A program made the translations under genes and the position numbers. A stretch of 52,405 nucleotides of DNA from Sulfurihydrogenibium sp. (GTDB lineage: Bacteria; Aquificota; Aquificia; Aquificales; Hydrogenothermaceae): the NCBI RefSeq assembly GCF_028276765.1, contig NZ_JAPYVU010000005.1:1-52405 (forward strand), written 5' to 3'. Numbering within the stretch: the first letter of the stretch is position 1; every line of letters starts with the position of its first letter. The notes under the pieces are model-generated. The model did not search any database and was not told the origin of the DNA. It was given only the letters and a program-made list of their open reading frames with translations. Shown here piece by piece: positions 6,051 through 12,213 of this stretch.

Positions 6051-7371
6051 ATTTTCCTTTTGCTTCAACGCCAAACTTAGACCATATAAAAAATCCTGCA
6101 AAACCTACAAGCCACAGCATACTTAAACCTAACACGCTCAATTTATAATCTATAGTTGCAAGATAGGTTAGTATTGGTGGAGCTAGCATTCCGGAGATTC
6201 TTCCAATGACAGATAAAACACCGATAGCAGTAGCCCTCAAATAAGAAGGATAAACCTCCATCGCAGACACATAAGCAACGCTTGCAAAAGAGTATGCAAC
6301 CAATGAATAAACAAAAACTGTAGTATAAATATCCTGCGATGTTAAAAAGAAAAAAGATGTTAAGAAAGAAAATAAAGCTACGGTCGTTCCTGTTATTTTT
6401 CTACCAAGTTTGTCAGATAAAAAAGATACAACTATACCACCGATTAAACCACCAATGCTTGCAGTTAGTAAAAGATTTGGAATTTCTTTTGTAGGAAGAT
6501 TATACTGATTTGTAATTACCAAAGGTAAGATAGTAATAAATCCATAGTATGTTGTCAAAATTGTAAAACTCATAGCCGTTCCAAATAAAAACCTTCCTCT
6601 GTACTTTTTAAGAATAATCTTCACTGCATCTAATAAACTACCCTCAAATACAGGAATTTCGCACTGTTTGTTTATTGGCTTTACATGATATTTCTTTTCT
6701 AATTTAAATACAATCTCTTCGGCTTTTTCTATTAGCCCCTTTGATATTAGCCATCTTGGAGATTCTGGAATGAAAAATCTTATAAATACTATCAATATTG
6801 CTAAACTACCGCCAAATAAAAACGCATACCGCCAAGCTTTTTCTTCAGGAAATGAAGACAGTAGATACATTCCAACCAAAGAAGCAAAAATACTTCCAAG
6901 ATTCCATGATGCAGTTATAAAACCATCAACCCTTCCCCTAAATCTTGATGGAATAAACTCATCTATCGCCGAATGGATAGCAGAAAACTCACCGCCAAGT
7001 CCAAATCCTGTGATAAATCTTAAAAGTAATGCAATTTCAAAAGAGTTAGCAAAACCCGTTAAAAATGTTCCAAGAGAGTATAAAAGCAGGGTTATGAAAA
7101 ATATTTTCTTTCTTCCGAACTTGTCAGCTAAATAACCAAAAATAAACGCTCCAACCAAAGCACCAATTAAAAAACTACTAACAAGCCAAGATGATTGAAA
7201 AACAGATAGATTTAAAGATTTAGCCATAGACTTTAAAACTACGCTTACAATTACAACTTCAAAAGCATCTAATATCCAAGTGATGCCAAGAGCTATAACA
7301 AACTTAGTATGAAACCAAGTCCATGGAAGGTTATCAAGCCTACAAGTTAAATCTGTTTTTATGTATCTCAT
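6031..7371 (-). CDS. MFS transporter, sugar/metabolite:H+ symporter type
   Basis: A 446-aa inner-membrane protein with twelve hydrophobic segments. Major-facilitator signatures are the loop 2-3 motif GYLADKFGRKK, RFITGFGLGGEF in segment 4-5, PESPRWL after segment 6 and the second-half repeat SFLSDKLGRK. PESPRW is typical of the sugar-porter/metabolite:H+ symporter branch, including organic-acid carriers such as benzoate and shikimate transporters; the substrate is not predictable. The start ATG overlaps the stop of the preceding 62-aa gene (ATGA), so the two are translationally coupled. Confidence 0.85.
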   Translation of the reverse strand: MRYIKTDLTCRLDNLPWTWFHTKFVIALGITWILDAFEVVIVSVVLKSMAKSLNLSVFQSSWLVSSFLIGALVGAFIFGYLADKFGRKKIFFITLLLYSLGTFLTGFANSFEIALLLRFITGFGLGGEFSAIHSAIDEFIPSRFRGRVDGFITASWNLGSIFASLVGMYLLSSFPEEKAWRYAFLFGGSLAILIVFIRFFIPESPRWLISKGLIEKAEEIVFKLEKKYHVKPINKQCEIPVFEGSLLDAVKIILKKYRGRFLFGTAMSFTILTTYYGFITILPLVITNQYNLPTKEIPNLLLTASIGGLIGGIVVSFLSDKLGRKITGTTVALFSFLTSFFFLTSQDIYTTVFVYSLVAYSFASVAYVSAMEVYPSYLRATAIGVLSVIGRISGMLAPPILTYLATIDYKLSVLGLSMLWLVGFAGFFIWSKFGVEAKGKSIEDIT

Positions 7372-7556
7372 TTGTTATCTTTCTTCTTCAGAGCTTGTTT
7401 GATAAGATTTCTCCCGGGATTTTCCTGCATACATGACTTATACGCACACATTCTACATAAAATGTCATTTGGATTATATCCTTTTGAATATCCATTTTTT
7501 ATTACTTCTTCCGGTAAACTTTCTATTTCTCTTTCTAAATCTTCTTTTTTTATCAT
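7368..7556 (-). CDS. Small Cys-containing protein coupled to the MFS transporter
   Basis: A 62-aa protein with three cysteines spaced CRMCAYKSC (residues 34-42) after an acidic helix and before a basic C-terminal helix. The arrangement could bind a metal, but no named family is recognised. SD-like GGAAA precedes the ATG. It overlaps the transporter start by 4 nt (ATGA), so it belongs to the same transcript. A perfect palindrome lies 26-44 nt upstream of its start. Function unknown. Confidence 0.7.
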   Translation of the reverse strand: MIKKEDLEREIESLPEEVIKNGYSKGYNPNDILCRMCAYKSCMQENPGRNLIKQALKKKDNK

Positions 7557-7581
7557 TTAGATTTCCTGTGTCTTTAATATT

Positions 7582-7600
7582 TTATTCTATTTTAGAATAA
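7582..7600. promoter_or_regulatory. Perfect palindrome upstream of the Cys-protein/MFS operon
   Basis: TTATTCTA-TTT-TAGAATAA has 8-bp perfect arms and lies just before the operon start on the minus strand. It could be an operator for a dimeric repressor or a small hairpin; no T-run follows, so a terminator is less likely. The rest of the gap to argH (7601-7852) has no supported gene. Confidence 0.35.
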
Positions 7601-7852
7601 GGAAAATTACTTAAATTATGAGATTCTTCACAATAAGATTTTATGTCATTTACTTAAATCGTTTACTTAAAGCATGGCTTGAAACAAACTCGGAAAATGC
7701 AGTTAACAAAAGAAGTGCGAATTTAACAATAACTTATTACAATAGTATAGCCAGGAAAAGATTCAGTAAAAGCAGAAGATTTTTAGTATATTTACAAAAT
7801 GACGAATGAGGAGAATTTTTTCATCTATAATATTTTGTTAAGGAGGTTAAAA

Positions 7853-9232
7853 ATGCAAGAAAAAAAGCTTTGGGGTGGAAGATTTTCTGAGAGTACAGAT
7901 GCTTTTGTAGAAGAGTTTACGGAAAGTATATCTTTTGATAAAGAGCTTGCTTTATATGATATAAAAGGAAGCATAGCCCATGCAAAGATGCTTGGAAAGC
8001 AAGGAATTATTCCACAAGAAGATGCTGAAAAGATAATAAAAGGCTTGCAAGAGATAGAACAAGAAATAAAAGAAAACAAAATTGCTTGGAAGAAAGAGTT
8101 TGAAGATGTTCATATGAATATTGAGAAAGCTTTAACAGATAAGATTGGGGAAGCGGGCGGAAAGCTTCATACTGGAAGGTCAAGAAATGATCAAGTTATT
8201 ACAGCTTTTAGGCTTTATTTAAAAGAAAATACACAGGATATAATAAATCTTTTAGAAGACTTGCAAAGAAAACTGTTAGAAAAAGCAAAAGAATATATTG
8301 ATATTGTAATGCCGGCTTATACTCATCTTCAAAGGGCACAGCCAATAAGGGTAGCTCATTACTTTTTAGCATACTTAGAGATGTTTCAAAGAGACAAAGA
8401 AAGATTTATTGATAATCTAAAAAGAATTGATATGCTACCGCTTGGCAGTGGAGCTGTTGCCGGCGTAGATTTTCCAATTGATAGAGAGTATGTAGCAAAA
8501 GAGCTTGGATTTAGTCAGATTATGAGAAACTCTATTGATGCAACAAGCAGCAGAGATTTTGCTTTGGAGTTTTTATCTAACTGTGCAATCTGTATGGCTA
8601 ATATGTCAAGATTTAGTGAAGATATGATAATATACTCATCTTCTGAATTTTCTTTTGTAGAGCTTCCTGATAAATTAACAACAGGTTCATCAATAATGCC
8701 CCAGAAAAAAAATCCCGATGTACTGGAGCTAATTAGAGGAAAAACTGGACGAGTTTATGGAAATTTGGTTTCTCTTTTAACAGTAGTAAAAGGTTTACCT
8801 CTTGCCTACAACAGAGACTTGCAAGAGGATAAGGAGCCGGTTTTTGATAGTGTAAAAACGATAAAAGGTTCAATAATAGGAATTGCTAAGATAGTTGAAG
8901 GTTTAAAGATAAATAAAGAAAAAACACAGCTTGCAGCAGGTGGTTTTGCACTTGCAACAGACTTAGCTAACTACTTGGCTGAAAAAGGTGTACCATTTAG
9001 ACAAGCTCATCATATTGTAGGAAGCATAGTTGGATATTTAGTAAATCAAGGAAGAGAGCTTGAAAGTATAACCTTAGAAGAGCTAAAACAGTTCAGCCCT
9101 CTCTTTGAAGAAGATGCTTTAAAACTTTTATCTCCTTTTGTAGTGGCAGACAGAAGAAAATCTTTTGGTGGAACGGCTAAAGAACAGATTTTATTTCAAA
9201 TAGAATATTGGGATAAAATATTAAACAAATGA
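7853..9232 (+). CDS. argH: Argininosuccinate lyase
   Basis: Last step of arginine synthesis: argininosuccinate to arginine and fumarate, cytosolic homotetramer. The 459-aa protein begins LWGGRFSES and has the fumarase/aspartase-superfamily signature GSSIMPQKKNPD, plus LHTGRSRNDQV and THLQRAQP, at normal family length. The strong AGGAGG at 7841-7846 fixes the ATG at 7853; an upstream in-frame start has no such site. The stop codon once overlapped the symporter start, but a repeat element now separates them. Confidence 0.96.
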   Translation: MQEKKLWGGRFSESTDAFVEEFTESISFDKELALYDIKGSIAHAKMLGKQGIIPQEDAEKIIKGLQEIEQEIKENKIAWKKEFEDVHMNIEKALTDKIGEAGGKLHTGRSRNDQVITAFRLYLKENTQDIINLLEDLQRKLLEKAKEYIDIVMPAYTHLQRAQPIRVAHYFLAYLEMFQRDKERFIDNLKRIDMLPLGSGAVAGVDFPIDREYVAKELGFSQIMRNSIDATSSRDFALEFLSNCAICMANMSRFSEDMIIYSSSEFSFVELPDKLTTGSSIMPQKKNPDVLELIRGKTGRVYGNLVSLLTVVKGLPLAYNRDLQEDKEPVFDSVKTIKGSIIGIAKIVEGLKINKEKTQLAAGGFALATDLANYLAEKGVPFRQAHHIVGSIVGYLVNQGRELESITLEELKQFSPLFEEDALKLLSPFVVADRRKSFGGTAKEQILFQIEYWDKILNK

Positions 9233-9250
9233 TTATTTTTATTGGATTAT
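9222..9250. repeat. 29-bp direct repeat, left copy
   Basis: Identical to 9432-9460. It covers the argH stop codon and would contain the symporter start codon if the insert between the copies were removed. Together with the right copy it brackets the MITE at 9251-9431. Confidence 0.9.
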
Positions 9251-9431
9251 TATACATTGGTTGAGAAATTAGCGGTTTTTGTAGAATTTAAAAAGAGATC
9301 CTTCGGACTTCATCCTCAGGATGACGAAGAAAACTTGATAATCATATACTTGACTAGGGGCAACTTTATTCGTCATTCTGCAGCCGGCGAAGAATCTCAT
9401 GCTTTTAATAAATTTCTCACCCGACGTATAC
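9251..9431. repeat. MITE-like element at the argH/symporter junction
   Basis: This 181-bp insert has imperfect terminal inverted repeats: tatacattggttgagaaatt at the left, and at the right aatttctcacccgacgtata. The core contains gagatccttcgg...ctcaggatgac and gtcattctgcagccggcgaagaatctcat. It is flanked by a 29-bp exact direct repeat. No gene is inside. Confidence 0.88.
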
Positions 9432-9460
9432 TAAACAAATGATTATTTTTATTGGATTAT
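9432..9460. repeat. 29-bp direct repeat, right copy
   Basis: Identical to 9222-9250. It contains the symporter ATG at 9439. Confidence 0.9.
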
Positions 9461-10788
9461 ATTTACTATCTCTTGTAATCATAGCTTTAGTATCAAAGAG
9501 ACTTATATCTTCTGAGAAAGATTATCTTCTTGCAGGTAGGTCGCTGCCTCTTTCTTTGTCTGTTTTTGCATTATTTGCAACATGGTTTGGCTCAGAAACG
9601 ATTCTTGGAGCAACTCAGGAAGTTTTAGAAGGTGGATTTATAAAAGTAATAGAAGAACCTTTTGGCGCTGCCCTGTGTTTAATTTTGGCAGGACTGTTTA
9701 TTGTTAAGCCATTGTATAGAATGAATCTTCTAACTTTTGGAGATTTTTTTAAAGTAAAGTATGGTGAGAAGATAGAAGTTTTAGCATCGTTTTTTTTGAT
9801 AATATCTTACTTTGGATGGATAGCTGCTCAGTACGTAGCTTTTGGATTGGTCTTAAAAACTATCACAGGTTTAAATTTAGAAATATCAACATTTATAGCT
9901 TTTTTGATTTCGCTTTTTATGACGTTTTTTGGTGGCATGTGGTCTGTTGCTTTAACAGACTTTATTCAAACAATTGTAATTCTTATAAGCATCTTTTTTA
10001 TTTTTGGAGAAATTTTAATCAAAGCAGGTGGATTGCAAGCGTTAGAAAAAATACCAACAAGCTACTTTAAAATCTTACCGGATTTAGACATAAAAAGTAT
10101 AATTCTATACATAGTTGCATGGATTACCATTGGACTTGGATCTCTGCCAGGACAAGACCTTTTTCAGCGTTTTATGTCATCTAAATCTGAGGATGTAGCT
10201 TATAAGTCTTCAATAATAGCCGGATTTATGTATCTTACAGTTGCACTTATTCCACTGATTACTGTTTTAGTCATATACTTTAATTTTGGATTTAAAACAG
10301 ATAAAACTTTGCTTGATTATGTATATTTAAATACTTCTCCAATTACAAAGTATCTATTTTTTGCAGGTCTTTTATCTGCTGTATTAAGTACGGCAACAGC
10401 TGCAATTTTAGCACCATCGGCATTGTTAAGCGAAAACATTATAAAAAAATTTTTTAATCATTTATCAGACTTAGCTTTGTTAAATATAACAAGATTGTCG
10501 GTCTTTCTGGTTGCTTTAATATCTCTTTTGTTAGCATACTCCGGAGAAACGATTTACAACTTGGTAGGGTTATCGTCTGTTTTAACTCTCGTGTCGTTGT
10601 TTGCTCCGTTTATATTCGGACTGTATTGGAAAAAGGCTAATTCAAAAGGAGCCTTGGCATCAATGGTTTTAGGGTTTTTGGTATGGTTTATCTTTTATTC
10701 TTTTCTTAAAGAAGAAGAACTTGGTATTTTCTTTGGCTTTATTGTAAATATTTTAGCTATGGTAGTTTTTTCTTTGATCAAGATTTAA
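9439..10788 (+). CDS. Sodium:solute symporter (SSS family)
   Basis: A 449-aa polytopic inner-membrane protein with about thirteen hydrophobic segments, fitting the Na+:solute symporter family (proline/pantothenate/acetate carriers). SSS features include DYLLAGRSLP near the N-terminus, FATWFGSETILGA in the first core helix and GSLPGQDLFQRFMSSKS. Substrate unknown. The start ATG lies in the right copy of the 29-bp repeat; no ribosome-binding site precedes it now, as expected if it was originally coupled to argH by an ATGA overlap. Its end overlaps the next convergent gene by 11 nt. Confidence 0.87.
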   Translation: MIIFIGLYLLSLVIIALVSKRLISSEKDYLLAGRSLPLSLSVFALFATWFGSETILGATQEVLEGGFIKVIEEPFGAALCLILAGLFIVKPLYRMNLLTFGDFFKVKYGEKIEVLASFFLIISYFGWIAAQYVAFGLVLKTITGLNLEISTFIAFLISLFMTFFGGMWSVALTDFIQTIVILISIFFIFGEILIKAGGLQALEKIPTSYFKILPDLDIKSIILYIVAWITIGLGSLPGQDLFQRFMSSKSEDVAYKSSIIAGFMYLTVALIPLITVLVIYFNFGFKTDKTLLDYVYLNTSPITKYLFFAGLLSAVLSTATAAILAPSALLSENIIKKFFNHLSDLALLNITRLSVFLVALISLLLAYSGETIYNLVGLSSVLTLVSLFAPFIFGLYWKKANSKGALASMVLGFLVWFIFYSFLKEEELGIFFGFIVNILAMVVFSLIKI

Positions 10789-10963
10789 CAGAAATAACTT
10801 TATTATCATACTCAACTATAGCCCTTCTTCCGCAATTCTTACATTTTACATCATCAAAACCATAACCATTGATTACTAAAATCACTTTCTTGTTTTCTTC
10901 ACCACATTTACATAAGAAACTTACTTCTTTAAAATCAACTTCTAACTTTTCTAAAGTTTTCAT
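10778..10963 (-). CDS. Small zinc-ribbon-like protein
   Basis: A 61-aa protein with two cysteine pairs, CKC near residue 18 and CKNC near residue 40, spaced like a small zinc ribbon, with beta-type sequence between. The ATG at 10963 is chosen because GGAGGT lies exactly 7 nt upstream; an in-frame GTG three codons earlier overlaps that site. It stands alone and is convergent with the symporter gene. No named family is recognised; nucleic-acid or metal binding is a guess. Confidence 0.7.
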   Translation of the reverse strand: MKTLEKLEVDFKEVSFLCKCGEENKKVILVINGYGFDDVKCKNCGRRAIVEYDNKVISVKS

Positions 10964-11130
10964 CTTAAACACCTCCTATAGTTTTGCTATTAATATACAC
11001 AGAAGGCGTTAAGGGAATATGAAGGTTAGGTTAAGATTATGTAAATTAAGATGCTGTGTTGTGTCATCCAACAACGAAATAAAAGATAGTATTCTAAAAT
11101 TTTTAGAAGTTGTAGAATGTATATGTAGAT

Positions 11131-11259
11131 ATAACCTTACCTTTGGCTGTCATCTTGAGACCGTAGGATCTCTTTTTTGATTTTTTTGACTTGAAAAGAA
11201 AAATAGGAGATTCTTCGCCGGCTGCAGAATGACGATGTGGATTTTTGCAAGCAGTCTCA
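11131..11259. repeat. MITE-like element, GCAGTCTC end variant
   Basis: Core tgtcatcttgagaccgtaggatctc and gagattcttcgccggctgcagaatgacg, ending in tttttgcaagcagtctcag. The remainder of the 10964-11367 gap is AT-rich and shows no other feature. Confidence 0.65.
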
Positions 11260-11367
11260 GTGGAAATTAAAACCTGTCATTCTAAAGCAGTGTGAGCTTG
11301 TAAATTTTTGCTTTTAAATTTTAACTGCCCAAAGATTTTGAATTTCTTGTCCCTGGATATTTATAAC

Positions 11368-12213
11368 CTACTTCTTATAAAGCTTTAATATGGCCGAAAA
11401 GTCTAAATCCTCCAATCCGTTTTTTATTGCAAGACCGTACATTTCTTTTACAGATGCCATACTAAAAGAAGAAAGCTTAAAATCTTTAAGTAGATCCTGT
11501 GCATAATGAAGGTCTTTATAAATTGCTTTTATAGAAAAATGCGGAGAAAAATCCTCTTTTAAAAGTTTTTCTTTCTTAACATTCAAGATATAAGAATTGC
11601 CTGCGCCAAGTTCTAAAATTTTTAAAACAGTTTCTTTTGAAAATCCAATACATTCACCGATGCCTACAGATTGAGATATAGCATCCATAAATATTCCAAG
11701 AACAATATTGTTTAAAAGCTTTCCATAGGTGCCATTTGGAACAGGTCCAAGATAAATTTTTTCTTTTGTAAATAGTTTTAAAACATCTTCAGCTTTCTTA
11801 AAAGCTTCTTCGTCACCGCCAATCAACATTACCAACTCACCTTTTAATGCCGGTATCACAGACCCAAGAACCGGAGCATCAAGGTAGTAAGCTCCTAAGC
11901 TTTTTAGATTTTCATAAGCTTCTTTTACATAGTTATAATGATTAGTGGTTGTATCTACTACTATTTTGGATTTTATATCTCCTTTAACTAATCCATGTTC
12001 ACCAAATATAACTTCTTTGGAAGCTGAGGAATCAAAAACATTAATGACAATAATCTCTGTTTCTTCTAAAAGCTGATAAGGATAATCTACAGTTTTAAAA
12101 TCTTTTACCTTTGATTTAGTTCTGTTATATACAATAACTTCTACACCACACGAAGAGAGCCTTTTTGCTATTGAAGAACCAAGGTTGCCAAATCCTATGA
12201 GTCCTACTTTCAT
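11368..12213 (-). CDS. NAD(P)-dependent beta-hydroxyacid dehydrogenase
   Basis: A 281-aa cytosolic oxidoreductase of the 3-hydroxyisobutyrate dehydrogenase/glyoxylate reductase family. The N-terminal Rossmann fold carries GFGNLG (residues 7-12). The substrate motif is DAPVLGSVIPALKGEL (112-127, usually DAPVSGG). The catalytic Lys165 sits in YGKLLNN, and the C-terminal half is the all-helical dimer domain. AGGAG precedes the ATG. Candidates are succinic semialdehyde/glyoxylate reductase or 3-hydroxyisobutyrate dehydrogenase; sequence alone does not decide. It appears to be a single-gene unit. Confidence 0.85.
   Translation of the reverse strand: MKVGLIGFGNLGSSIAKRLSSCGVEVIVYNRTKSKVKDFKTVDYPYQLLEETEIIVINVFDSSASKEVIFGEHGLVKGDIKSKIVVDTTTNHYNYVKEAYENLKSLGAYYLDAPVLGSVIPALKGELVMLIGGDEEAFKKAEDVLKLFTKEKIYLGPVPNGTYGKLLNNIVLGIFMDAISQSVGIGECIGFSKETVLKILELGAGNSYILNVKKEKLLKEDFSPHFSIKAIYKDLHYAQDLLKDFKLSSFSMASVKEMYGLAIKNGLEDLDFSAILKLYKK

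Follow-up and report, generated by a model that had tools for sequence, protein, structure and literature searches.

A 33-bp target duplication that probably kept argH and a neighbouring symporter gene whole through a MITE insertion in Sulfurihydrogenibium

How can a mobile element enter a junction at which the stop codon of one gene overlaps the start codon of the next, and leave neither gene broken? The question is posed by the boundary between argH and a sodium:solute symporter gene in a Sulfurihydrogenibium genome (84 contigs, 1.75 Mb), in a stretch of 52,405 nucleotides that we call the window and that is part of contig C5. We conclude, with considerable confidence, that a MITE carrying the ends of a full-length IS inserted here, likely through the transposase of that IS, and that the accompanying 33-bp duplication kept both genes whole. 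The features concerned are collected in Table 1.

Table 1. Features at the argH/symporter junction and at the left edge of the window, in window coordinates.
Feature	Position	Strand	Remarks
argH, argininosuccinate lyase, intact	7853–9232	+	TIGR00838 equivalog, 651 bits
Sodium:solute symporter (SSF), intact	9439–10788	+	PF00474, 126 bits
Left copy of the 33-bp target-site duplication	9218–9250	+	argH TGA 9230–9232 and original ATG 9229
Right copy of the 33-bp target-site duplication	9428–9460	+	symporter ATG 9439, within ATGA
TAT, three extra bases at the left copy/element border	9251–9253	+	sole unaligned bases of the left flank against the empty site
MITE, 174 bp	9254–9427	+	multi-copy; inverted ends starting 5'-AC
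Left terminal inverted repeat	9254–9270	+	ACATTGGTTGAGAAATT
Right terminal inverted repeat	9411–9427	-	ACGTCGGGTGAGAAATT
Decoy frame from the old start codon	9229–9264	+	11 codons, MIIFIGLLYIG; stop inside the MITE at 9262
argH frame without stops between the argH TGA and the TGA that overlaps the symporter ATG	9230–9442	+	210 nt = 70 codons; TTG at 9242
Full-length IS of the MITE's family, right end only, cut by the contig edge	1–123	+	flank starts with AT at 124

A preliminary description of this DNA had placed a 29-bp repeat on both sides of a 181-bp element with inverted-repeat ends. The direct repeat is present, but it is 33 nt long and 97% identical between its copies (one mismatch, spacing 210 nt), the 29 bp being its exact core. 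The inverted ends also hold (ACATTGGTTGAGAAATT and ACGTCGGGTGAGAAATT agree at 14 of 17 positions), whereas the length is better given as 174 bp plus TAT. In the left copy the argH TGA and the original ATG overlap as ATGA, and 206 nt now separate the argH stop from the symporter start in place of the old 4-nt overlap. An Rfam scan of positions 7000 to 12000 gave no matches.

We use MITE for an element that is shorter than 500 bp, has no transposase gene, ends in terminal inverted repeats and is multi-copy, and the 174-bp element is such an element in size, gene content, ends and copy number. It is in addition flanked by the 33-bp duplication, has a single-copy empty site in G004 (a closed genome from within the genus), and has 17-bp ends in common with an autonomous element, the IS. 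At least 45 matches to it occur in its own genome, at least 44 in G004 and at least 45 in G005; a genome search found none in G001, G002, G003 or G006. Its interior (9290 to 9400) is built from a dispersed palindromic repeat that is far commoner across the G004 genome, where GTCATTCTG..GAAGAATCTC occurs about 280 times and GTCATCCTGAG..GAAGGATCTC 335 times, just 51 and 75 of these copies, respectively, lying within paired-end elements.

The junction without the element is found in G004, which has one 33-bp copy, with the argH TGA and the symporter ATG joined as ATGA (...AATACTAAACAAATGATTATTTTTATTGGATTATATTT). It had been proposed that removing the element with one copy of the repeat would restore such an overlap, and that relatives without the element should have a single copy; G004 bears out both. 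When the flanks of the insertion are aligned to this genome, whose argH and symporter proteins are 97 to 98% identical to those of the window, they overlap by exactly 33 bases and TAT alone stays unaligned. The three extra bases call for an additional event, slippage, or else for a duplication of 36 bp that has taken on two changes; slippage after insertion is probably their source. At its fourth base the left copy has T in place of C, a change that is synonymous in argH (Leu); both the right copy and G004 read ATAC where the left copy reads ATAT, so the left copy mutated after the insertion. All the other genomes of the genus that show the argH/symporter junction (G001, G002, G003, and G006) have a 4-nt overlap there in the form TTGA, the argH TGA lying over a TTG start. 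Taken with the single-copy ATGA of G004, this makes the overlap ancestral in the genus, and it was thus an ancestral overlap that the insertion split. In G005, third among the nearest genomes, a break falls at this junction, so that it gives no confirmation; in more distant genera argH and the symporter do not overlap, their starts being adjacent or spaced. Empty sites in G004 also exist for three further MITEs of the window's genome, whose flanks overlap there by 33, 36, and 22 bp.

Purifying selection still acts on argH and the symporter. The symporter has a dN/dS of 0.088 against G004, and the G000 branch shows 4 nonsynonymous changes as against 18 synonymous ones. The proposal that the duplication preserved the downstream start is upheld, as the symporter ATG lies in the right copy and both genes are intact. 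The preliminary description had also remarked on the lack of a ribosome-binding site before the symporter; none is present upstream of its ATG in the window, but this is not new, the empty site in G004 being without one too. Because the symporter has no such site now and had none before, it is plausible, judging from the sequence, that it ancestrally depended on translational coupling and that this dependence is no longer served. Reinitiation at the old ATG would yield only the decoy peptide MIIFIGLLYIG.

Two ways around such a loss deserve consideration. The element might itself provide a promoter or a leaderless start for the symporter, and a TATACT hexamer resembling a -10 box does lie across the right junction (9427–9432); we think this rather unlikely, however, since only 2 promoter-like sites were observed where shuffling leads one to expect 2.3, and neither promoter nor terminator scans did better than on shuffled sequence. 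Coupling might otherwise be relayed through the element, by a restart at the TTG at 9242 or by readthrough of the argH TGA, with ribosomes ending at the second TGA, which overlaps the symporter ATG. The spacing of 210 nt is divisible by 3 and no stop interrupts the frame for 69 codons across the element, a configuration whose chance under a Markov model is about 0.045 x 1/3, roughly 1 to 2%. Yet the pattern was noticed post hoc, the frame is open in just 6 of 63 MITE copies, and its only starts are TTG, with no ribosome-binding site, so that we regard a relay as unlikely.

What moved the element? The window opens, at its left edge, within a full-length IS of which the right end is present, and an identical IS end occurs at about 20 contig ends of this genome, from which it follows that IS copies break the assembly. 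Three pairs of these IS-bearing contig ends have perfect common stretches of 29, 33, and 29 bp, and the IS has therefore moved recently in this genome, leaving the same footprint; no partner contig end was found for the copy cut at the window's own edge. Full-length relatives in G003, G006, and G043 (the last from another family) are about 965 to 970 bp long, with 963 to 966 bp between AC and GT, and have the ends ACNYYGRGTGAGAAATT. The match between MITE and IS is confined to the 17-bp ends, and the sub-terminal sequences differ, so the MITE is not a simple internal deletion of the IS and its mobiliser has to be deduced. The G004 copy of the IS (L141, 1400–2125) encodes a transposase of 241 aa that lacks the residues separating the catalytic D from the E, and G004 may for this reason hold MITEs without a working parent IS. 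A wide transposase scan returned 6 loci, mostly in Aquificales bins. The same IS, with an apparently broken transposase frame, was seen with identical flanks in bins labelled Omnitrophota and Aenigmatarchaeota (L202 and L203), which is probably binning contamination.

The restriction of the likeness to 17 bp, together with the seemingly defective state of the surviving G004 copy, leaves room for a different transposase that recognised the same ends and produced the same insertion and duplication. We consider such a mover distinctly improbable: the sole transposase found inside these ends belongs to one clade, with the catalytic spacing D-100-D-24-E, MITE and IS are alike in the range of their duplication lengths and in their AT...AT edges, and IS copies that are almost identical to one another lie at many contig ends, which speaks for recent activity in the very genome concerned. 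Mobilisation by the transposase of the IS is the reading that we retain.

The length of the duplication had been described as unusual for a MITE. That is so by comparison with MITEs and IS982 relatives generally, but it is normal for the element's own family. Elements were anchored on their AC...GT ends and their flanks were then scored for duplication, which was significant in 44 elements, with a median of 28 bp. Among the 32 duplications with at most one mismatch, 29 measure 23 to 38 bp; AT opens 27 of the 32 and closes 25. When MITE flanks were mispaired, 0 of 2000 draws attained the threshold score, and with mispaired IS flanks 4 of 2000 did, all four at one score. For the full-length IS, duplications flank 11 of 18 copies in G043 (23–38 bp), 3 of 4 in G003 (24, 26, and 33 bp), and all 3 in G006 (25, 27, and 32 bp). 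About half to four fifths of copies, older or rearranged, have no detectable duplication. The long duplication is a trait of the whole family, common to the MITE and the full-length IS. An origin of the 33-bp repeat other than transposition (a pre-existing repeat, recombination, or misassembly) is scarcely credible, for the only thing that speaks for it is the 3-nt irregularity on the left side, the single copy in G004 refutes a pre-existing repeat, the pattern recurs at three other loci, and comparable repeats flank dozens of copies across genomes.

Only one of the 43 insertions flanked by a duplication, that at argH/symporter, spans a stop and a start together, and 25 are intergenic by a mechanical ORF call; we therefore rejected the idea that gene overlaps are targeted. 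At some other sites a likely ribosome-binding site lies inside the duplicated stretch, as judged by eye (e.g., AAGGAGG at L019). Independent MITE and IS insertions at L008, L019, and L092 surround the ribosome-binding site of an apparent repeated gene (GAGGAATAGTAATGGATAAG / AAGGAGGAATAATAATGGATAA), which suggests a local insertion hotspot.

Insertion by the IS machinery, the reading that we favour, would have proceeded as follows. The 174-bp non-autonomous MITE, bearing the ends of the IS of about 970 bp, was most likely mobilised in trans by the IS transposase into an AT-rich site that straddled the stop-start overlap. The transposase would link the element's two 3' ends to the target, one to each strand, with about 24 to 38 bp between the joining points, and gap repair after such a staggered cut would duplicate the whole stretch between them. 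The left copy would in this way retain the argH stop, and the right copy the start of the symporter, both genes staying whole because the duplicated 33 bp covered the two signals. If the two genes are important, insertions that failed to spare both would presumably have disappeared, and the neat fit would reflect survivorship and not targeting.

More tentatively, the elements may represent a separate IS family of the Aquificales, with a D-100-D-24-E transposase whose stagger always spans some three helical turns between AT edges, and that is unusually harmless at gene boundaries; we hold this for possible, though short of an even chance. If true, the long duplication would place complete stop codons, start codons or ribosome-binding sites on either side of the element, and the rarity of damage at gene boundaries would let the IS and its MITEs spread heavily in compact genomes. 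The geometry of strand transfer fixes how long a target duplication is, and a few bases are the norm. The clade offers thermophile transposases of about 290 aa, many fresh insertions, short ends, and, in the true IS982 of the same genome, short-duplication controls, which makes the question of long duplications directly testable. The argH/symporter junction is a clean natural case, in which a stop-start overlap was split with neither gene broken, but the broader interest lies beyond this single junction, in an IS clade with long duplications. The open-access literature that we searched contained no description of these elements in Sulfurihydrogenibium and no IS982 relative with long duplications, an absence that is weak evidence. 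A long-duplication IS clade in the Aquificales, with MITEs bearing its ends and an odd catalytic spacing, is apparently undescribed.

Among known systems, the IS982 family is the closest in general build, with an IS of about 1 kb, a single transposase of about 290 aa, inverted ends starting 5'-AC, and DDE chemistry (PMC7335449). The transposases studied here (282–299 aa) find their best NCBIfam match in IS982 (NF033520) at 48.4, 31.3, and 21.0 bits, against a cut-off of 130, and match Pfam DDE_Tnp_1 marginally. In an alignment that included true IS982 from this phylum, seven of eight clade members have catalytic spacings of 100 to 101 and 24, and the eighth, apparently broken, 89 and 24; the eight true IS982 have 79 to 83 and 45 to 46 (D-80-D-46-E). 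The duplications differ as well, at 23 to 38 bp in the clade versus 2 to 10 bp published for IS982 (PMC7335449) and about 5 to 15 bp in five of six true IS982 that served as controls in G003, the sixth having none. The transposase is thus distantly IS982-like and the clade resembles IS982 in size and ends, but we do not place it there on account of its score below the cut-off, its catalytic spacing and its duplication length. The absence of K/R seven residues after the catalytic E was discarded as a discriminator, since K stands there in the clade and in most of the true IS982 tested. Modelling of the transposase fold (pLDDT 66) yielded no more than weak matches to the catalytic domains of P element and mariner-type transposases (best E 0.009), which were left out of the family assignment.

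Long duplications are known elsewhere, with different machinery. Those of IS1182 span 2 to 60 bp (PMC7335449). The IS1202 group resembles the clade in its unusually long duplications of 16 to 28 bp, but has transposases of 441 to 457 aa (quoted for the ISAjo2 type) and 5'-TGT ends, against about 290 aa and 5'-AC here (PMC10132070). IS1549 and IS1634 likewise make long, variable duplications (8 to 514 bp), for which, as for those of IS1202, no mechanistic model had been proposed as of 2008, but they are 1.5 to 2 kb in length with other ends, and the range of the clade is narrower, 23 to 38 bp (PMC2266710). Among prokaryotic MITEs, QMITE2 is similar to the element at argH in its length of about 170 to 190 bp, inverted ends, AT-rich targets, stable hairpin, and many copies, and is set apart by direct repeats of 7 to 9 bp, as opposed to the 33 bp that spared both genes here (PMC10969869).
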